Shown in pieces: positions 6,604 to 17,065 of a DNA stretch of 21,325 nucleotides (position 1 is its first letter; each line of letters starts with the position of its first letter). The position numbers and the translations under genes were made by a program. The notes below the pieces were generated by a model. The model saw only the letters and a program-made list of their open reading frames with translations. It was not told the origin of the DNA and searched no databases. The stretch lies in IMG/VR virus record IMGVR_UViG_3300046804_000362, positions 1 to 21,325 of that record; one strand, given 5' to 3'. This DNA is from a virus.

Positions 6604-6794
6604 CAGTAGCAACCTGCATCAAGCCAGCTCTGCACCTGAGAGCTATTGGCTGTATCGATCAACTGCTGGGTAGCGTTGTCGATCGAGGTGAAGTACAGAC
6701 GCAGCACGTTGCTCAACTGCTGGTTGTAGTCCAGCGTGTAGGTTGAAGACGGCTGCGGAAGGTTCGGGCCCTTGGTTGTGGCAATGTCAGCCAT
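6603..6794 (-). CDS. Small conserved phage protein, 63 aa
   Basis: A short helical protein: a disordered N-terminus (MADIATTKGPNLPQPSS), then YTLDYNQQLSNVLRLYFTSIDNATQQL-like heptads split around a Asp-Asn pair, and a short tail ending in AGCY. The spacing of Leu/Ile (QQLSNVLRLYFTSID) suggests one amphipathic helix, perhaps an oligomerising helix within the tail. I recognise the DYNQQL...LRLYF pattern from small genes beside nozzle-like genes in uncultured phages, without a known function. Its ATG overlaps the stop of the 878-residue gene (TGATG), and its own stop overlaps the next ATG in the same way, so the three are coupled. Confidence 0.7.
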   Translation of the reverse strand: MADIATTKGPNLPQPSSTYTLDYNQQLSNVLRLYFTSIDNATQQLIDTANSSQVQSWLDAGCY

Positions 6795-9430
6795 CAGCGT
6801 CTCCCGTCAGGGGAAATGTCGAACCGCATGGCACCCATCTGCCACTGGACGCCCAACCCGGTGGACTCGATCCGCATGGCCATCTGGCGTCCACGGACCC
6901 GGGTAAAGACCTCACCAGTGTACTGCTCGACAGGGTAGGTGTACGTCGGAGCAGCTGGCAGGGCAGTGTTTGTCACCGTCATGGTATCCACACCGATGGC
7001 GTAGGCCGTACCAGAGTTCTGCCGGGGCTCGATGGTCAGCGTAACCGAGGGGTTCGTAGCCGTCGAGTTGGTGAACGTCAGGTCAGGTAGGACACGCCAG
7101 ACATACGAGAAGTTGTGCCCGTCCGCGATAGCCATGTCAGCTGTCTCAATATAGGCACTGATGGGGAGAGGTGACGTAAGCGAGATACTTGCGTCATCCA
7201 GTCCATACTCATGGAACAGAACCTGATTCGGTACGAGGTAGCTAACCGGGGCATAGATGCTATGCGAGGCGGCGGTTGTGCCGTTGGCACCGCGAGTCAG
7301 ACCAGAGAACGTGTTGTTGTTCTGGTCGTTCGGTCCTACCGTGTAAATGATCTGTTCCGAGTCGATAGTGATCGTGCCCGTAGAAGGGTACGAGTTACCG
7401 TTGATGACCGTGATGCTGGGGCTCGTATCCGTAATAGTCTGACTGATGTAGGTCTTCTGAAGACTGAACATGGACAGGGGATAGGTTTCCAGCGGAGTAC
7501 CATTCCAAGCCGTACGGTTGATAGTCCCGTAGTACCACAGGTCATCCAAGTAGTTGTAGATGATGTAGCTGTCGTTGACCTGACTAGTAGCAGATGGGTA
7601 GAACCACCAGATCTCGTTGAAGCCTTCGTTGTACCCGGCAATAATTTGATTCAGCTGGCTCTTGTTGAGATTGCTGTAGACAAAGCGCCGCAGGGTGCAG
7701 GGGAGGCTCTTCACGCTACCGTCGTAAACGTAGAATCGGTCAACGCCCATGAAGTAGGTAGCGTTGTTGGTCGAGATGGCAGCGTTCGGAGAGATGATCG
7801 AGATGTTGTCCTGCAGCAGGTTGAAGCTGAAGACATACGGAGCGCCGACGTACTGCATCGAGTACATGGCGGAGTCCGACCACACCACGATTTCCTGACG
7901 GGTATTAACCGCCGTGACGAGGTACGAGCCGTTCGACAAGAGCTGCTCGCCAGCCTGATTTTGCTGCTGCGGGACCCACTCATACAGGTTGGACTGATCA
8001 GTCCACCTCACCAGCATGGGATTGAAGGCCGAGGCCGTCAGCAACGTCGGGTCGTAAGAGTTTGCCCCCAGTGCAATGGTGAACTGGTAGGTGCTGGCCG
8101 AGATGATGCGGTTGGTCTGGGTCGGGACCGCGTCTCCAGAGTAGCTGAAGTTCAGTACGTCGCCCGCCGAGAGGGTGACGCCAGCGCTCAACGTGACCGT
8201 GAAGCCATTGTTGTACGCCGTGGTGACCTTCGTACCAGTCGGGATAGACGAGCCACCGGAGCCAGACGAGATAGTTACCGTAGCGCCTTGCGTGATGTAG
8301 TAGTTGTTGTCCACCACAATGCTGGTAACGCCAGTACCGCCAGTTGTTACGACTGCTCTACCCTTGACCTGAGTAGCCGTGTAGGCACTGAGGAGGACAC
8401 CGCGAGAGGAGAAGGTAGGGTCAAACACCCAGTAGTAGATTGAGCCCTGCACCGTCGAGAAGACGAGGTCCTGATTGAAGTTGCACTGAGACCAAAGCCG
8501 CAGCGCCTGAGTGATGGTGCTGGTACCACCACTCTGCCCCCAACCGCCAGTACCAGCGTTGGTAGTCATAGCCACAGGAGCAGCAGGAGTGCCAACCAAT
8601 ACTGCCGAACCACTAACAGTCCACGATAGACCACCACCAGCAGTGATAGTAGTACCAGAAAGAGCCGTGGTGTAATTTACCGGAGTAACCTGCGCACAGC
8701 TGATGGTGTTCGTGGCAGTGATTGTGCCAGTACCAAGTGCCGTAACAGTAAGCGTATTACCCGCAACTGAAGAACCCGAACCTGCCGAGATATAGCCAGT
8801 AAAGCTAGCAACCGACGTGCCACCCCAAGGGCCGTTACCCCAGCCAAGCGCCGAGGATACGACGTTGTTACCCGCGTTGATCTGGTAGGCAATGTATACG
8901 TTTGCGCCACCGCCCGTAGCAGCCGTGGGTATAGTCGGGTAGCAGCTGATAGTGAAGGAGTCACCGTCCGGGGTCGTGATGACCTCGTACTCACCGCTGA
9001 CCGTATAGCCACCTACCGCCGTAGCTCCAGTGATAGTGACAAACGTACCTGCCGAAACGCCGTGCCCAACCGCATTGATGGTGATGAGGCTATTGGTGCC
9101 ATTAGTCACAATCGGATTGCTGAGGGGTCCAGCCGTCGTGCGTAGCGGGGTGATGTCATAGTAGACGTTACCGTACTCGACGTAGTACTTCTGGTTGGTA
9201 CCAAACGCTAGGACAACGTAGCCGTAAGGGCTGTACGAAGACCAGCTGAGCATCGTACGCGCAACGCCAGAGAAGGTATTGTTGTACGAGTAGTTGATCC
9301 ATCCACCGATCTTCTCAACGAAGCCTGAACGGAACCGGATCTTGTCGCAGTTGTAGAAACCCCCCGACACAGCGTAGGAGGTTATCTCTTTGTTGACACC
9401 GGGTTTGAACGGGATCTTCGTTACTGGCAT
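6794..9430 (-). CDS. Large nozzle-like tail protein with inserted beta-modules, 878 aa
   Basis: The N-terminus (PFKPGVNKEITSYAVSGGFY, then IRFRSGFVEKIGGW) is characteristic of a podovirus structural family related in role to P22 gp10 or T7 gp12, the beta-propeller nozzle. The core also shows propeller-like blades: SNLYEWVPQQQNQAGEQLL, IVVWSDSAMYSMQYVG, YFMGVDRFYVYDGSVKSLP, NEIWWFYPS and YNYLDDLWYYG. Four stretches look inserted: residues about 108-180 (NSLITINAVGHGVSAG), 208-290 (a module with GGGLSWTVSGS), 357-430, and 668-728 (GTITIDSEQIIYT, then FSGLTRGANGTTAASH). The last 150 residues are strands ending in MAMRIESTGLGVQWQMGAMR. The nozzle role is an inference from pattern and context. It starts 2 bases after the endolysin stop. 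Confidence 0.78.
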   Translation of the reverse strand: MPVTKIPFKPGVNKEITSYAVSGGFYNCDKIRFRSGFVEKIGGWINYSYNNTFSGVARTMLSWSSYSPYGYVVLAFGTNQKYYVEYGNVYYDITPLRTTAGPLSNPIVTNGTNSLITINAVGHGVSAGTFVTITGATAVGGYTVSGEYEVITTPDGDSFTISCYPTIPTAATGGGANVYIAYQINAGNNVVSSALGWGNGPWGGTSVASFTGYISAGSGSSVAGNTLTVTALGTGTITATNTISCAQVTPVNYTTALSGTTITAGGGLSWTVSGSAVLVGTPAAPVAMTTNAGTGGWGQSGGTSTITQALRLWSQCNFNQDLVFSTVQGSIYYWVFDPTFSSRGVLLSAYTATQVKGRAVVTTGGTGVTSIVVDNNYYITQGATVTISSGSGGSSIPTGTKVTTAYNNGFTVTLSAGVTLSAGDVLNFSYSGDAVPTQTNRIISASTYQFTIALGANSYDPTLLTASAFNPMLVRWTDQSNLYEWVPQQQNQAGEQLLSNGSYLVTAVNTRQEIVVWSDSAMYSMQYVGAPYVFSFNLLQDNISIISPNAAISTNNATYFMGVDRFYVYDGSVKSLPCTLRRFVYSNLNKSQLNQIIAGYNEGFNEIWWFYPSATSQVNDSYIIYNYLDDLWYYGTINRTAWNGTPLETYPLSMFSLQKTYISQTITDTSPSITVINGNSYPSTGTITIDSEQIIYTVGPNDQNNNTFSGLTRGANGTTAASHSIYAPVSYLVPNQVLFHEYGLDDASISLTSPLPISAYIETADMAIADGHNFSYVWRVLPDLTFTNSTATNPSVTLTIEPRQNSGTAYAIGVDTMTVTNTALPAAPTYTYPVEQYTGEVFTRVRGRQMAMRIESTGLGVQWQMGAMRFDISPDGRR
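8561..8809 (-). repeat. Related beta-module inserted in the nozzle-like protein
   Basis: Residues about 208-290 of the 878-residue protein: FTGYISAGSGSSVAGNTLTV followed by a degenerate centre and AGGGLSWTVSGS. The opening resembles FNGYISSGAGLTAAGTTLTV at the start of the giant repeat protein. The middle looks rearranged, so homology is likely but not certain. Confidence 0.55.
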
Positions 9431-9432
9431 GG

Positions 9433-9771
9433 TTACACCCGTCGCTCAAAGTGTGGAAGATCCTTGAAGGAGTTCCAGTTGCCGCCCCAAGAGTTCTTCT
9501 TGCTCAGGCTTTCCCAATAGTCACCGACTATCTGCAGCTCAACCTTGTCATAAACGAGCTTGCCATCAAGGAAGAAATTCAAGTCAACCGCACAACGCTT
9601 CAAGTGGTTACTGTTCAGCGTTTTCGACCTGCCAGTCTTGACGTAAATCTCTTGCTGCTCCGGAGTACGGAACAGCTCGCCGCCAGTCACGACAAAACCG
9701 CTCTTGGTGGCGAACATCACAAGACGGCACATATCTAGCAAGAACGCCTGCTGCTCTGCTACTAGGCTCAT
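9433..9771 (-). CDS. Endolysin, M15-family D,D/L,D peptidase, 112 aa
   Basis: A compact zinc peptidase of the VanY/M15 type that would cut peptidoglycan cross-linking peptides. The zinc ligands are visible: His56 and Asp63 in SNHLKRCAVDLNFF (HxxxxxxD) and His107 in DLPHFE, with Trp residues in WGGNW just before, as in phage L-alanyl-D-glutamate endopeptidases. TGGELFRTPEQQ gives the usual RTxxxQ substrate-side loop. The length is that of a single catalytic domain; there is no cell-wall binding domain and no signal peptide or SAR helix, so export depends on a holin. The holin is the gene immediately before it, and the two overlap by ATGA. A strong family call. Confidence 0.92.
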   Translation of the reverse strand: MSLVAEQQAFLLDMCRLVMFATKSGFVVTGGELFRTPEQQEIYVKTGRSKTLNSNHLKRCAVDLNFFLDGKLVYDKVELQIVGDYWESLSKKNSWGGNWNSFKDLPHFERRV

Positions 9772-10295
9772 TTCAGCACCTTATCCAGTTGAGCAGACTT
9801 ATCCTTGCTGCCAATCGAACTACCGAAGTAGTACGAGATGACCTGCGTCGAGATGGCGGTCAAAGCGCCAAGGACGTACACCAAGATGTCCTTGCGGCTG
9901 GATTCCACCGGGGAGTTGTCAAACATCAAGAAGCCAAACAGGATGAACGTGAGAGCCGTGATGAAGAGTGCCAGCACCGGAGTGACAATCTTGTTGATGA
10001 TTGGCGCTTTATCCGAAGTGGCAATATCCGTCTCACGTTTGCGGGCACTGTCGGTGTCCTTGAGGCGTAGGTCAAGCTCCTGAAGATCTAGCTTGTTGTC
10101 TTCGAGCTGGAGCTTCAAAAGTTCTTCCTCATGCTCCATCTCAGCGATCTTGAGCTTGGCATAGTCCTCGCTGGTCATATCAGGCTTGAGTTCAACGCCC
10201 AGCTTCTTCTCGACCCAGTCCTTGCCCTTCGCCGCTACGGCGTTGGCAACAAGGTTGAGACCCTTACCCAGCAATGCAGCGACGATAGGAATCAC
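9768..10295 (-). CDS. Holin, 3-TM gene-transfer-release type, 175 aa
   Basis: Residues 1-20 are a weakly hydrophobic helix (IPIVAALLGKGLNLVANAV). Residues about 42-90 form a charged coiled coil (EMEHEEELLKLQLEDNKLDL). Two clear membrane helices follow, KIVTPVLALFITALTFILFG and DILVYVLGALTAISTQVIS, then the tail YYFGSSIGSKDKS, a signature I associate with the holin family described for gene-transfer-agent release. It would open the inner membrane for the endolysin encoded next. Start: I choose GTG at base 10295, which overlaps the nuclease stop (GTGA) and has GGGAG 9 bases upstream. Starts further upstream (TTG 10304, GTG 10301) lack a placed SD. Confidence 0.88.
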   Translation of the reverse strand: MIPIVAALLGKGLNLVANAVAAKGKDWVEKKLGVELKPDMTSEDYAKLKIAEMEHEEELLKLQLEDNKLDLQELDLRLKDTDSARKRETDIATSDKAPIINKIVTPVLALFITALTFILFGFLMFDNSPVESSRKDILVYVLGALTAISTQVISYYFGSSIGSKDKSAQLDKVLK

Positions 10296-10648
10296 GGACA
10301 CCAACTCCCACGGGCCCCGCCCGTGTACTGCCTAGCTAGTCCATCAGCAACCAGAATGCCAGCGACTTCCTGACCGTTGGCGACAACAATGGCATCGACG
10401 CGCCCAGCAAACTTGTCCGGGGTGATGTCGGATATGACAATCGAACCCGTCAGTAGCTCTGCCAAACGCGCCTTGGCCTTCAATGCAAGGGCCTTCTCAG
10501 CCGCGCACTTCCCCTTCAGCTCAGGGGTATCGATACCCTTGAGGCGTACAGCCGTGACAATCTCCACCCCATCCCACACCGGGACTCGGGCTTTGAACGT
10601 ATCTCCATCAGTGACGGAGATGAGCATGGCGAGGAAGGAACCGATCAT
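10292..10648 (-). CDS. Staphylococcal-nuclease-like (SNase) nuclease, 118 aa
   Basis: The complete SNase core is visible: VTDGDTFKARV (first Asp ligand pair), VRLKGIDTPELKGKCAAE (the Arg35-Asp40-Glu43 set, by chance with the same numbering as the mature Staphylococcus enzyme), and AGRVDAIV, whose Arg83 matches catalytic Arg87. The end (GQEVAGILVADGLARQY) is the conserved third helix region. The reaction would be calcium-dependent, unspecific cleavage of DNA or RNA. The N-terminus is short and mildly hydrophobic (MIGSFLAMLIS), not a convincing signal peptide. The gene sits directly before the holin and overlaps it, so it is expressed with lysis functions. A role in degrading host DNA or lowering lysate viscosity is an inference. 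Confidence 0.88.
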   Translation of the reverse strand: MIGSFLAMLISVTDGDTFKARVPVWDGVEIVTAVRLKGIDTPELKGKCAAEKALALKAKARLAELLTGSIVISDITPDKFAGRVDAIVVANGQEVAGILVADGLARQYTGGARGSWCP

Positions 10649-10650
10649 GG

Positions 10651-10791
10651 TCAGTTCTTGTTCGGATGGTCGCGGTTATCATCAGGCTTGATGCCACCAC
10701 CGCCCGTACCCGTCTTGTTGGGCTTGGACAGGTCACGATAGATGAGGTAGACAAAAGCCGCGAGGGCGATAAGACCAAGAGTGATAGACAT
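10651..10791 (-). CDS. One-helix membrane peptide, 46 aa
   Basis: A small gene with a good SD (AAGGAG) that overlaps the stop codon of the glycine-rich gene and is followed by the nuclease ATG two bases after its own stop. The product starts with a single membrane helix (SITLGLIALAAFVYLIY), then a basic turn RDLSKPNKTG, a glycine run and a hydrophilic tail ending in DDNRDHPNKN. With no charges in the first 17 residues it is likely N-out, C-in. Its place at the head of the lysis cassette suggests an auxiliary holin, pinholin or antiholin, but a structural role is equally possible. There is no lipobox, so it is not an outer-membrane spanin. Confidence 0.72.
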   Translation of the reverse strand: MSITLGLIALAAFVYLIYRDLSKPNKTGTGGGGIKPDDNRDHPNKN

Positions 10792-10800
10792 GATTGCTCC

Positions 10801-11460
10801 TTAAGTGAACGAGATAACGACTTTGGCGTCACCGCCAATAGTTGGATTTTGGGTAGTAGGAGTACCTTTACCGCCAACACCACCAGTACCACCCGTGACA
10901 CCGCTAAGACCTGTAACAGGAGCACCAGCAGTACCGGGACCAGAACCGCCATCACCTGCGGGAGTATTGGTCGTATTAACATCACCACCTGTTGGCAAAC
11001 CGCCACCAGCACCGCCCGTACCATCCGCGCCAGAGCTACCTTGTACACCGCCGCTACCACCGGGAACAGATAGCGTGAACGAACCAGAAGAAAGAGCGAC
11101 TGGAGTACTTGCACCAGAAGCAGACCCGTTACCGCCAGCAGTGGGTGTAGCACTATTAGCACCAGCGGTGCCACGGGTACCAAGGGTATAGTTGATCGCC
11201 TTACCGATATCCGTACCATTATTCAGCGAACGAGTGATACGCGAGTAAGCACCACCACCACCGCTACCGCCAAGACTTTCATTGGGTGAAACGGTATAAC
11301 CGCCAGCACCGCCGCCACCCGGACCCCACACCTGCACAACAACCTGTGTCGCGCCAGCAGGGACAGTAACACTGCCCGTACCCGGAACAGTATTGGTGAA
11401 CGTATTGGTGACAGGCGAGAACGCCGCCGCACCAGCAAACACGTTGAGAATTGCGCCCAT
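10801..11460 (-). CDS. Glycine-rich tail/adhesin-like protein, 219 aa
   Basis: The N-terminal 70 residues carry a short beta domain with FTNTVPGTGSVTVPAGATQ and VVVQVWGPGGGGAGGY, the typical entry to phage glycine-rich domains (the kind Pfam calls Gly_rich_2). About 110 residues of Gly/Ser/Thr/Ala-rich sequence follow, with poly-Gly clusters (GGSGGGGAY, GGTGGVGGKG). The end (IGGDAKVVISFT) closes the sandwich. Glycine-rich domains of this type occur in receptor-binding proteins, where polyglycine-II helices pack as a bundle. The start was set at the ATG overlapping the previous stop (TAATG); the 30 upstream codons read as out-of-family sequence. The receptor-binding role is likely but unproven. 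Confidence 0.75.
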   Translation of the reverse strand: MGAILNVFAGAAAFSPVTNTFTNTVPGTGSVTVPAGATQVVVQVWGPGGGGAGGYTVSPNESLGGSGGGGAYSRITRSLNNGTDIGKAINYTLGTRGTAGANSATPTAGGNGSASGASTPVALSSGSFTLSVPGGSGGVQGSSGADGTGGAGGGLPTGGDVNTTNTPAGDGGSGPGTAGAPVTGLSGVTGGTGGVGGKGTPTTQNPTIGGDAKVVISFT

Positions 11461-12002
11461 TAGCCTATCACCACAGTTTTGACCGCGCCTCCGGTCGTGC
11501 CAAAGAGAGTCGCAGCGGGAGCTGCGAGTGTAAACATGTACTGAGTACACGGGCGACTAGTGCCACTACCAATAAGGCTACCCGATCTGTACTGCGGTGT
11601 AGCCCGCACGGTAGACCCACCAGAGACCGTTGTACCATCAACGACCAACGTAGTGGCGAAGTTGGGAGCCGTCACAGTAGTATCTCCGTCAGTCAGAATG
11701 ACGTAGTAGCTAGCGTTGCCAGATGACCCACCAGCAGAATAAATGCCAAGGACAGTTACACCAAGCACGGGAGCCGTAGCTGACCCTACTGGGCATTGAG
11801 TGTTGTCAATGAACTGGGTATTGAATACTGGACCACTACCCGGCGTATACCCAACAATAGACCAGCCATAAGCCCAGTTAGTTTGAGTACCGCCACCAGT
11901 TGCATTAGTACCTAGCCCAACAATGACAGTGAACGTACCACCGCTAGATGGGTTGGCAACGCCTGCTGCACTAGCCGCCAACAGACTAAGCGCCCCACTC
12001 AT
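11460..12002 (-). CDS. Beta-rich protein of the tail-fibre group, 180 aa
   Basis: Start chosen at the ATG overlapping the stop of the fibre-like gene (TGATG); ten extra upstream codons read VHQRYGAHL and look like shadow. The protein begins MSGALSLLAASAAGVANP, a mildly hydrophobic stretch that could pass for a weak signal peptide but is more likely a fibre-assembly segment, since no secretion context exists. The rest is Gly/Thr/Ser/Val-rich strands (FTVIVGLGTNATGGG, SYYVILTDGDTTVTAP, TQYMFTLAAPAATL) with two Cys residues. I do not recognise a family. It lies between a fibre-like protein and a glycine-rich adhesin-like protein, so a tail-tip or fibre-accessory role is reasonable. Confidence 0.65.
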   Translation of the reverse strand: MSGALSLLAASAAGVANPSSGGTFTVIVGLGTNATGGGTQTNWAYGWSIVGYTPGSGPVFNTQFIDNTQCPVGSATAPVLGVTVLGIYSAGGSSGNASYYVILTDGDTTVTAPNFATTLVVDGTTVSGGSTVRATPQYRSGSLIGSGTSRPCTQYMFTLAAPAATLFGTTGGAVKTVVIG

Positions 12003-13822: not shown

Positions 13823-16800
13823 TTATGTCCATCCGGGGTCTTGGGAGTCGTCTACTGGAGTCCACGGAGCCCCCTGAGATTCGTCAACAGAAGTCCAGCC
13901 TGCGGACTGTGTATCGTTTACATCCGTCCATCCGGGGTTCTGAGAATTGCCGACAGAGGCCCAGTTTGATGTCTGAGTATCGTCAATCGCAACCCATCCG
14001 GATACCTGCGAATTGCTGACCGACGCCCAAGCCGTGGTCTCGGATACATCGACGGACACCCAGTTGGATGTCTGCGAATCAACGACATCTGCCCAAGACG
14101 GGTTCTGAGAGCCGCTGATCGAGGTCCAGTTGGGATTCTGCGAGTCTGGGATGTCCGTCCAGTCAGGAGTCTGACCGTCATCGACCGGATTCCAAAGCTC
14201 GACAATTTCAACTGTGACTTGCCCGATTGTACCAAAACCGGAGACGCCTGTGACATATACCGAAATGGCGTTCGGTATCCGATTGGTCAGGTCGAACTGC
14301 TGCGCCGCAATACGGGTTACCGGGTTCGGCCAGTCGGTCTGACGGAACGGATTCAGCGAAACCTGCCGGATCGTCGTATTCGGTATCAGGTACTGCTGAG
14401 CCGAGACACGGATGACCGGGTTCTGCCAGTCGTACTGGTTGAACGGCAGGACGACAACAGGCGGAGCCACCAACCGCAGGAGGGTATTCGGCACCTGCTC
14501 CGGATGCGCGAACCGCTTGGGTGGCGGAGTCGGCCAGTCAGTCTGGAAGAACGGAGCCGACAGGTTCAGTTGACGGAGGTTGTCCTCCATCGACTGGGAC
14601 GGGGCCTTCTTGGGTACGGGGTTCGGCCAGTTGGTCTGCTGGAACGGGAACCCTGCGAGCGGGGGCGGGACCTGAAGAAGGGTGTTGTTCCCTATCAGCT
14701 CCTGACGAGCCGCAATGCGAGTGACGGGGTTCTGCCAATCCGTCTGAGAGAACGGCTTGATAGACAGGAGCCCAGCAATCGCGGTGTTCTGGAGGATCTC
14801 CTGACGTACAGCAATGCGGGTAACCGGGTTCTGCCAGTCACTCTGGAAGAACGGAGCCGCCAAATTCAACTGACGTAGGCTGTCCTCCCACGTCGGGGTC
14901 GGGGGTTTCTTGAGAGTCGGGTTCGGCCAGTCCGTCTGATGGAACGGGAATCCTGCGACGGGCGGGGGAGCCTGCAGGAGAGTGTTGTTCCCGAGGATTT
15001 CCTGACGAGCCGCAATGCGGGTGACCGGGTTCTGCCAGTCCGTCTGAGAGAACGGCTTGATAGACAGGAGCCTATCAATCGCAGTGTTCTCAAGGATTTC
15101 CTGACGCGCCGCAATGCGGGTGACCGGGTTCTGCCAGTCAGACTGCTTGAACGGGTCAGGGACAACCAGCTGCCGGAGCTCATCGTCCCACGTCGGGGTC
15201 GGGGGCTTCTTGAGCGTCGGGTTCGGCCAGTCCTTCGGACCAAACGTCCACGCCGACTTCTGGTTCAGCAGGTTGTTCTGGACTACATCAGGCTGTGGGA
15301 ACCTACGAGTAGTCGGGTTCGGCCAGTCCTCCTGACCAAACGGGAACCCTGCAACAGGTGGGGGAGCCTGAAGCAGCGTATTGTTCTGGACGACATCAGG
15401 CTGCGGGAACCGCTTGGGCGGAGGCGTGAGCCAATCAGTCTGCTTGAACGGATCAGGGACAACTATCTGGCGAAGCTCGTCGTCCCACGTCGGGGTCGGA
15501 GGCTTCTTGAGGGCAGGGTTGGTCCAGTCATGTACGCGGAACGGGAAAGCACCGGGAGGCGGTGCGATCTGGTAGAGCGTCGTGTTCGGGGCGACAACAG
15601 GCTGAGCATGTTTGTACGCTGGGGGCGTGACCCAGTCGGACTGGAAGAACGGCGGAGGCGGAGCCACCTGACGAAGTACAGTGTTCTGTACGACATCAGG
15701 CTGGGCGTACCGCTTGGGTGGAGGCGTGGGCCAGTCAGTCTGAGCAAATGGTTGGACAGAGAGCAAGCGACCAATGCTGGTGTTTTCCACCACATCGGGC
15801 TGCGGGAACTTGCGGGTGACCGGGTTCTGCCAGTCAGACTGCTTGAACGGGTCAGGGATGACCAGCTGCCGTAGCTCGTCATCCCACGTCGGGGTCGGGG
15901 GCTTCTTGAGCGTCGGGTTCGGCCAGTCCTTCGGACCAAACGCCCACGCCGACTTCTGGTTCAGCAGGTTGTTCTGGACTACATCAGGCTGTGGGAACCT
16001 GCGGGTAGTCGGGTTCGGCCAGTCCTCCTGACCAAACGTCCACGCCGACTTCTGGTTCAGCAGGTTGTTCTGGACTACATCAGGCTGAGCGTACCGCTTA
16101 GGTGGCGGGGTGGGCCAATCCTCCTGACCAAACGGGAACCCTGCAACAGGCGGGGGAGCCTGAAGCAGCGTATTGTTCTGGACGACATCAGGCTGCGGGA
16201 ACCGCTTGGGCGGAGGCGTGACCCACTCATCCTGCTGGAATGGGTCTGGGATGACCAGCTGCCGTAGCTCATCGTCCCACGTCGGGGTCGGAGGCTTCTT
16301 GAGGGTCGGGTTCGGCCAGTCCTTGTTATGGAAGGGCCATGCCGACTTCTGGTTCAGCAGGTTGTTCTGGACTACATCTGGTTGGGCGTACCGCTTGGGT
16401 GGCGGAGTCGGCCAGTCATCCTGAGCAAATGTAGGAACAGATACCTGATTCAACAGGTTGTTCTGAACTACATCGGGCTGGGGGAACCTGCGGGTAGTCG
16501 GGTTCGGCCAGTCCTCCTGCACCAGAGGAGCAGCAGATAGTAGCCGCGTGTTGACTGATACTTGGTCAGTCTGGACGTTCGCCTTGCGGACAGCCGGGTT
16601 TGAAAGATCGTCAGGTACGATCGGCGGGTTAGACGATACGAGCAGGCCGAGCGCAAGAACAGACCCCGTGAACGTGTGTATCCACGACGGGGGCTTACGA
16701 GGTATAGGATTGGGCCAATCAGTTTGCCGAGTAGGCTCTTTGATGGCTAGCTGACGAAGCTCATCATCCCAAGGCTGCGAAGGCGGCTTCTTGGGTACCG

Positions 16801-17065
16801 GATTAGGGAAGTCGTTCGTTCTGAACGGGACTTCGCCAGTCATTGCGATGCCAGCAGTGGCACCTACAGACTGGGATACGCTAACCGTCCACGATGTACC
16901 ACTACCCCCTGTGATGCGGGTAGTAGCATTGACGCCAACGCCTTTTACGTTCTGCCCAATGGCAATCGTGCCATCGGTAACAGACAAAACGGTGAGGGTT
17001 GTACCAGCGGCAGTTAGTCCAGCGCCGCTCGAAATGTAACCATTAAACCGAGCATTAATGGTCAC
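13823..17065 (-). CDS. Giant Trp/Pro repeat protein, probably a virion appendage, 1,080 aa
   Basis: Starts at GTG with GAGGG six bases upstream. Domain order: residues 8-75 a beta-module shared with the fibre-like protein; 81-925 about 26 imperfect repeats of 31, 32, 33 or 36 residues, each opening with DWPNP, DWPTP or DWQNP and closing near PF; 926-964 a linker with YVTGVSGFGTIGQVTVE; 965-1080 eleven 11-residue repeats with an invariant Trp, the last one cut short. Unit classes include KKPPTPTWDDELRQL, KRFPQPDVVQNNTLLQ and TRIAARQEIL. There are no Cys, signal peptide or enzyme motifs. The protein is Pro/Gln/Asn-rich and probably extended. It lies just before the tail-fibre gene, so I infer a fibre, spike or fibre-linker, but no function is established. 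The SD of the next gene overlaps its stop. Confidence 0.8.
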   Translation of the reverse strand: MTINARFNGYISSGAGLTAAGTTLTVLSVTDGTIAIGQNVKGVGVNATTRITGGSGTSWTVSVSQSVGATAGIAMTGEVPFRTNDFPNPVPKKPPSQPWDDELRQLAIKEPTRQTDWPNPIPRKPPSWIHTFTGSVLALGLLVSSNPPIVPDDLSNPAVRKANVQTDQVSVNTRLLSAAPLVQEDWPNPTTRRFPQPDVVQNNLLNQVSVPTFAQDDWPTPPPKRYAQPDVVQNNLLNQKSAWPFHNKDWPNPTLKKPPTPTWDDELRQLVIPDPFQQDEWVTPPPKRFPQPDVVQNNTLLQAPPPVAGFPFGQEDWPTPPPKRYAQPDVVQNNLLNQKSAWTFGQEDWPNPTTRRFPQPDVVQNNLLNQKSAWAFGPKDWPNPTLKKPPTPTWDDELRQLVIPDPFKQSDWQNPVTRKFPQPDVVENTSIGRLLSVQPFAQTDWPTPPPKRYAQPDVVQNTVLRQVAPPPPFFQSDWVTPPAYKHAQPVVAPNTTLYQIAPPPGAFPFRVHDWTNPALKKPPTPTWDDELRQIVVPDPFKQTDWLTPPPKRFPQPDVVQNNTLLQAPPPVAGFPFGQEDWPNPTTRRFPQPDVVQNNLLNQKSAWTFGPKDWPNPTLKKPPTPTWDDELRQLVVPDPFKQSDWQNPVTRIAARQEILENTAIDRLLSIKPFSQTDWQNPVTRIAARQEILGNNTLLQAPPPVAGFPFHQTDWPNPTLKKPPTPTWEDSLRQLNLAAPFFQSDWQNPVTRIAVRQEILQNTAIAGLLSIKPFSQTDWQNPVTRIAARQELIGNNTLLQVPPPLAGFPFQQTNWPNPVPKKAPSQSMEDNLRQLNLSAPFFQTDWPTPPPKRFAHPEQVPNTLLRLVAPPVVVLPFNQYDWQNPVIRVSAQQYLIPNTTIRQVSLNPFRQTDWPNPVTRIAAQQFDLTNRIPNAISVYVTGVSGFGTIGQVTVEIVELWNPVDDGQTPDWTDIPDSQNPNWTSISGSQNPSWADVVDSQTSNWVSVDVSETTAWASVSNSQVSGWVAIDDTQTSNWASVGNSQNPGWTDVNDTQSAGWTSVDESQGAPWTPVDDSQDPGWT
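13826..14173 (-). repeat. C-terminal 11-residue Trp repeats
   Basis: Ten and a half units with consensus SQNPxWTSVDD, for example SQNPNWTSISG, SQTSNWVSVDV, TQTSNWASVGN and SQNPGWTDVND, so a Trp codon recurs every 33 bases. The protein ends inside the last unit at GWT. Similar S-Q-x-x-x-W repeats close other phage structural proteins that I remember; no function is known to me. Confidence 0.9.
14546..15145 (-). repeat. Tandem 300-bp super-repeat inside the array
   Basis: Residues 641-740 and 741-840 are two adjacent 100-residue blocks, each made of a 33-, a 36- and a 31-residue unit in the same order (QSDWQNPVTRIA..., QTDWQNPVTRIAARQE..., then ...LRQLNL.APFF). They differ at scattered positions, as expected for an older tandem duplication. 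Confidence 0.85.
15116..15429 (-). repeat. Near-identical repeat block, short version
   Basis: This block matches 15812-16221 almost base for base. Up to about 15336 the offset is 696 bases; after it the offset is 792 bases. The difference, 96 bases, is one 32-residue unit that this copy lacks. Confidence 0.85.
15812..16221 (-). repeat. Near-identical repeat block, long version with one extra unit
   Basis: Partner of 15116-15429. The additional unit is about 16031-16126 (residues 314-345, QEDWPTPPPKRYAQPDVV...). Over the last roughly 100 bases of the block only one mismatch to the short copy was seen by eye. Confidence 0.85.
16841..17044 (-). repeat. N-terminal beta-module of the giant repeat protein
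   Basis: Residues about 8-75: NGYISSGAGLTAAGTTLTVL, GTIAIGQNVKGVGVNATT, then TGGSGTSWTVSVSQSVG. It is the only non-repetitive globular domain at the N-terminus of this protein and is shared with the neighbouring fibre-like protein. Confidence 0.7.

Follow-up and report, generated by a model that had tools for sequence, protein, structure and literature searches.

Staphylococcal-Nuclease-Type Proteins without Signal Peptides in Phage Lysis Cassettes: a Candidate Nuclease Timed to Host Lysis

Phage lysis is usually described through holins, endolysins, and spanins. Staphylococcal-nuclease-type (SNase-type) enzymes are Ca2+ dependent, and free Ca2+ is low in the cytosol. In the nuclease of Staphylococcus aureus (SNase, PF00565; structures 1snd and 1snc, the latter a Ca2+ complex among the structures listed for fold comparison), D19, D21, R35, D40, E43, R87, and T41 are the catalytic residues. 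Here we describe a gene for a minimal enzyme of this type that appears to have become an accessory protein of a phage lysis cassette. We judge it somewhat probable that its product is a nuclease timed to lysis, one that leaves the cell by means of the lysis proteins rather than Sec and attacks nucleic acid at the time of lysis or later.

The window analyzed is the entire virus record IMGVR_UViG_3300046804_000362 (21,325 bases), in which all open reading frames (ORFs) with phage-family matches lie on the minus strand. Family matches identified a DNA ejection protein and a stabilization-type protein besides virion structural proteins among its products, so that the source is likely a short-tailed, P22-like phage. 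Four cassette genes (TM46, SNase, HOL, and M15) run from 10791 to 9433 on the minus strand (Table 1), with 2 bases between TM46 and SNase, 4-base overlaps at the SNase/HOL and HOL/M15 junctions, and 2 bases between M15 and the next structural gene. ORFs and junctions thus match the order given by the initial annotation, a membrane peptide, SNase, a gene in the holin position, and an M15 endolysin with tight spacing. TM46 matched neither the PHROGs nor Pfam at E 0.001. M15, the second gene downstream of SNase, matched PF13539 with 40.4 bits (cut-off 25) and an endolysin family of the PHROGs. The structural gene that follows is annotated as a stabilization protein in 3 of 10 matched phage records, and its counterpart comes after M15 in L004 and other relatives. 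Rfam gave 0 matches within the window, and promoter and terminator scans found 3 and 4 candidates, respectively, against shuffle means of 5.0 and 5.0. Elsewhere on the minus strand, ORFs of 1080 aa (13823-17065) and 606 aa (17-1837) had no PHROG match at E 0.001.

Table 1. Features of the window cassette and cassette backgrounds of signal-less SNases in related contigs
Feature	Position or contigs	Strand	Basis or remark
TM46, 46-aa single-TM peptide, opens cassette	10651..10791	-	ORF; one hydrophobic segment, KD 1.79
SNase, 118 aa, SNase fold, no signal peptide, ends GSWCP	10292..10648	-	PF00565, phrog_452, AlphaFold model, PDB fold match
GTGA overlap, SNase stop and likely HOL start	10292..10295	-	Junction sequence
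HOL, holin-like protein, 175 aa from GTG	9768..10295	-	phrog_1544 (unknown function), hydropathy
HOL alternative, 178 aa from upstream TTG	9768..10304	-	ORF; GTG start judged likelier
ATGA overlap, HOL stop and M15 start	9768..9771	-	Junction sequence
M15 peptidase endolysin, 112 aa	9433..9771	-	PF13539, phrog_465
Phage stabilization-type structural gene, flanks cassette after M15	6794..9430	-	phrog_3287 virion structural protein
Glycine-rich tail-type gene, flanks cassette on TM46 side	10801..11550	-	phrog_754 minor tail protein, PF21722
Background (a): TM77, SNase, GH108, GTA-type holin	L002, L029, L032, L033, L034, L035
Variant of (a)	L035		156-aa ORF of unknown family separates SNase from GH108
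Background (b): tail-tip-like gene, TM ORF, SNase, M15	L003, L030, L038		TM ORF is TM77 in L030 and L038
Background (c): SNase, M15, GTA-type holin	L058, L059, L060		Stabilization-type gene then in L058
Background (d): SNase, HOL, M15, stabilization protein	window, L004
Background (e): SNase, M15, spanin-like ORF	L055		Spanin-like by eye
Background (e): SNase, HOL, M15, GTA-type holin	L062

HOL had been called a holin. Its position and its hydrophobic segments (one strong, starting at residue 107, and two weaker, starting at residues 4 and 137) agree with that label, but no holin family was matched: the only matches were phrog_1544 and phrog_9990, both of unknown function, with none to a Pfam holin family and none to PF11351 up to E 1. 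Identity with the GTA holin (GTA_holin_3TM), which three related cassettes (L029, L058, and L062) contain, was not supported, given the absent PF11351 match and an hhalign alignment (probability 64.6, 60 columns) that covered a mostly soluble stretch and not the TM part. The 175- or 178-aa product is a plausible holin; the label, for which hydropathy and position are the grounds, is weaker than first claimed. The same ATG or GTG start before IPIV or IPLV is found in the HOL genes of four cassettes lacking SNase (L005, L006, L008, and L009).

The SNase product matched PF00565 with 33.4 bits (cut-off 21) and phrog_452. An AlphaFold model, computed from an alignment of the window SNase with 47 of 69 listed locus sequences, had a mean pLDDT of 92.4 and a pTM of 0.84, and its closest fold match was 1snd_A (Z 15.3, rmsd 3.1, 105 residues aligned, 30% identity). 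The fold itself is ordinary. The model contains the OB-fold core of the S. aureus nuclease, and residues D14, D16, R35, D40, E43, and R83, kept in 79 to 80 of 80 aligned SNases, together with T41 (75 of 80), align with the seven S. aureus residues named above. The initial annotation had claimed that every catalytic residue is present and had named their loss in relatives as grounds for abandoning the idea. Alignment recovered the full set, and the relatives retain both the residues and the placement described below, so that these grounds did not materialize. Unlike the S. aureus enzyme, the window protein lies in a phage lysis cassette and lacks a signal peptide, and its final modeled helix spans residues 95 to 101, with residues 102 to 118 helix-free, so that the C-terminal helix is missing.

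Only 13 residues precede the DGDT motif of the window SNase, and since the model places residues 5 to 12 in strand beta-1, a signal peptide would not fit there; no TM-like segment was found by hydropathy. A role for the hydrophobic N terminus as a signal or anchor was ruled out, as this stretch is strand beta-1 in the model and does not reach a TM-like level. Lead length, model, and hydropathy thus agree that the signal peptide of secreted thermonucleases is absent from the window SNase. Whether leads in other proteins are signal-like was graded by eye throughout.

Relatives were sought in viral contigs with the window SNase, two SNase alignments, HOL, and the GH108 endolysin as queries, and the best 80 of 92 SNase relatives and the best 80 of 583 GH108 relatives were retained. 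Among these signal-less relatives, every contig whose downstream side is visible (16 of 16, each contig counted once, including the window and the interrupted copy L038) carries an M15 or GH108 endolysin next to SNase or one gene on; the relatives thus keep the placement with lysis genes. Several loci are the same contig (L004, L007, L036, and L072; L002, L031, and L057; L029 and L054; L032 and L056; L034 and L053; L040 and L061). The contig of L061 ends within SNase and has TM77 upstream. The signal-less SNases occur in five cassette backgrounds with differing neighbors (Table 1), whose families were confirmed by Pfam and PHROGs for the window, L003, L029, L030, L055, L058, and L062 (the L062 M15 matched phrog_465 and scored 23.7 bits, slightly below the Pfam cut-off of 25) and were assigned in the remaining contigs with profiles that we built from seeds partly drawn from these loci. 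Leads before DGDT are 13 to 17 aa long in this group, with the L003 start set to the ATG 13 residues before DGDT (the automatic call gave a lead of 51). The first possible start of the next frame lies inside the SNase gene for 11 of 15 intact signal-less cassette SNases, and in nine contigs the end of TM77 and the SNase start share 4 bases; both overlaps, TM77/SNase and SNase/GH108, were read in the L054 and L033 sequences. That the closest signal-less relatives found here occupy the same kind of place suggests that SNase works as the host cell bursts.

Three of these contigs have features of their own. The 156-aa ORF of L035 (3897-4367) has an overlapping start and no PHROG match. The SNase of L034 (4250-4609; also L053) looks chimeric, with an N-terminal part like that of L003 and a C-terminal part near-identical to that of L029, a pattern that suggests recombination within the gene. 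In L038, a contig closely resembling L030, the SNase frame is interrupted (2065-2214).

A tree of the SNases (80 rows, 102 columns, few columns for so many rows) has a weak backbone and one branch with 99/87 support that unites 15 intact lysis-cassette SNases with L066 and L071 (17 of 80 rows), the last two having signal-like leads and no recognized lysis gene nearby. The tree does not include L038, L061 and L126 (cut by contig ends), L127 (short open frame), seven identical rows, the cyanophage SNases, or L200. With L028 included, the lysis label requires 4 changes on the tree, and shuffled labels require 14.8 on average; this demonstrates clustering of lysis-cassette SNases and nothing more. 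The 15 branch members may stem from one acquisition and therefore are not 15 independent tests.

Five close cassettes without SNase (L130 to L133 and L135) have GH108 directly after TM77. When compared with five SNase-bearing cassettes, all 25 alignments contained a single insertion of more than 50 bases, 353 or 356 bases long, that corresponds to the SNase gene minus its overlaps, between flanks that are 75 to 89% identical. The gene is optional: of the 80 GH108 loci (the best 80 of 583 relatives), 5 carry it, and among 21 HOL loci it is present at 1. This rarity would fit an insertion-tolerant slot before the holin and endolysin genes in which SNase rides along as a moron, whether selfish or neutral, with its own overlapping start and stop and no lysis role. 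The content of the slot does vary: L005 has a 55-aa TM-like peptide there, L006 has ORFs of 49 and 82 aa, L008 and L009 have only tail-type genes directly before HOL, L035 has its further ORF at the same place, and L038 has lost an intact SNase frame. However, dN/dS is well below 1 in all 10 SNase pairs compared (0.06 to 0.17, some near synonymous saturation), as expected under purifying selection, the branch remains with lysis genes even though the downstream neighbor varies, and other SNases too are found in lysis cassettes. We therefore consider a passenger without a role in lysis unlikely.

Three of these other SNases, L028, L067, and L083, have signal-like leads and fall outside the 17-row branch; the gene immediately after L028 encodes an endolysin (phrog_181), L067 is preceded by GH108 and a TM-like ORF of 61 aa, and L083 lies 680 bases beyond an M15 gene. 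Release by lysis is thus not the sole route out of the cell for SNases of lysis cassettes. A fourth, the signal-less SNase of L200, sits between two Rz-like spanin genes (phrog_739 and phrog_812) and GH108, about 200 bases from the latter (locus region 800-1932); having been found through its endolysin, it is a biased draw.

Beyond the signal-less lysis group, lysis neighbors were also sought in 47 records, with GH19 and Phage_lysozyme searched throughout and M15 and GH108 searched in the locus flanks. Three of them had an endolysin within 700 bases of SNase: L067, L083, and L080, where it is on the opposite strand. GH19 was matched in 2 of the 47 records, both times below cut-off, and Phage_lysozyme in 6. 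The nearest of these matches were 76 bases (L080, whose lysozyme match contains a stop) and 1343 bases (L111) away, both on the opposite strand, and the rest were 2.2 to 8.9 kb away. Most SNases outside the group are therefore away from the endolysin families searched (GH19, Phage_lysozyme, M15, and GH108), and they may have lysis neighbors of other endolysin families. Among named phages, SNase is not beside lysis genes in Arthrobacter phage Kovu and Sulfurimonas phage SNW-1, lysin A is about 4 kb upstream of it in Arthrobacter phage Sonali, and it does not adjoin lysis genes in Rhizobium phages RHph_Y65 and RHph_I1_23, the latter with an endolysin about 2.3 kb off on the other strand. Signal-less SNases occur outside lysis genes as well (L073, L075, L088, L089, L099, L110, L115, L116, and L124). 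Those of L073 (2002-2376) and L075 (2189-2575) overlap the upstream gene in a myovirus baseplate-like operon, and a different role is possible for them.

Such signal-less SNases in nonlysis operons, and the RHph_Y65 SNase beside nucleotide-metabolism genes, would suit a late enzyme that acts in the cytosol, breaking down host DNA or RNA for nucleotides before lysis or cutting superinfecting DNA, as would the missing signal peptide of the window protein. Set against this are the late lysis-gene position, the Ca2+ requirement of SNase-type enzymes where Ca2+ is scarce, and the risk that such an enzyme would also pose to unpackaged phage DNA, and we regard a cytosolic role as distinctly unlikely.

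By a strict column test, 67 of 80 SNases have cysteines at both positions 48 and 117, 12 have neither, and 1 is discordant; all 80 agree once the Cys48 search range is widened. The tree leaves 1 independent pair if supported branches are counted and 3 if all are (sign test, P = 1), so the sequences give only a hint of a Cys48-Cys117 disulfide. Such a pair would suit an oxidizing place, and SNase might reach the periplasm by way of holin lesions just before the cell lyses, there destroying the incoming DNA of competing phages. Holin-type or TM neighbors fit this idea, and the signal-like SNases of other lysis cassettes would reach the periplasm, but L200, a signal-less lysis-cassette SNase, lacks the cysteine pair, and we rate action at this stage as very improbable. 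Packaging into the virion for delivery to the next cell, as its place among structural late genes and the baseplate-like operons of L073 and L075 might suggest, deserves hardly any credence, as lysis genes bracket SNase across different phages, the phage genome would be in danger if an active nuclease shared its capsid, and no packaging feature was seen.

Under the lysis-timed reading that we prefer, SNase would be cotranslated with the lysis proteins through the overlapping stop and start codons and, lacking an export signal, would stay in the cytoplasm. As a member of a Ca2+-dependent family, it would be expected to be nearly idle there and to switch on in the outside medium once the holin and endolysin had opened the cell and let it out. 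The released enzyme would cut freed host DNA and RNA, with progeny genomes shielded in capsids. Candidate benefits include freer diffusion of virions, less sticky debris, release of nucleotides, and removal of competing DNA. If this is true, some phages manage the nucleic acid that lysis frees, and doing so would influence the diffusion of virions as well as extracellular DNA, transformation, and nutrient release.

Bacterial relatives bear on where such a nuclease may have come from. Of 289 genomes sampled from the class of a Kiloniellaceae MAG (an alphaproteobacterial lineage), 136 had an SNase match at E 0.001, many of them weak, and plasmid SNases numbered 43 records. These thermonuclease-type proteins share the domain and, in most of 30 inspected loci, a W-C ending with the window SNase. 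They differ in that all 30 inspected chromosomal loci, one from the Kiloniellaceae MAG itself, have leads of 31 to 90 aa from the first possible start that are signal-like by eye (for several, an alternative start would shorten the lead, at the extreme to 13 residues or fewer) and no M15, GH108, or holin profile match within about 1.5 kb. Long leads without lysis neighbors fit an origin of the phage branch among exported nucleases of bacteria, with later loss of the signal peptide, but do not amount to proof of it. More tentatively still, we propose a class of "lysis nucleases": secreted-type nucleases that lost the signal peptide on joining phage lysis operons, are idle at low Ca2+ (perhaps with Cys48 and Cys117 reduced) and activated by lysis, and move as a one-gene module among unrelated cassettes, an arrangement at which several SNase lineages would have arrived independently.

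Among the open-licence PMC papers listed for this subject, most of which lack the SNase term, no title or abstract opening concerned an SNase within a lysis cassette, and PMC12596118 has 0 occurrences of nuclease, DNase, lysis cassette, or gene neighborhood. Within those titles, abstract openings, and that paper, no description was found of a signal-less SNase branch that is associated with lysis operons across different endolysins and varies by one-gene presence or absence. Cyanophages, Rhizobium jumbo phages, and phage SNW-1 likewise carry an SNase domain in their genomes, but these proteins are less than 40% identical to the queries, and the RHph_Y65 and SNW-1 neighborhoods, when opened, contained no annotated lysis gene. 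The nuclease-like protein of Caudoviricetes sp. ct7L0027 (MW202675; L028) resembles the window SNase in that its gene directly precedes an endolysin gene, annotated there as chitinase A, and has a phage stabilization protein as the third gene after it; its signal-like lead and its position outside the branch of the window set it apart. With holin/endolysin/spanin cassettes, the window cassette shares gene order and overlaps, and to these it adds a nuclease gene.
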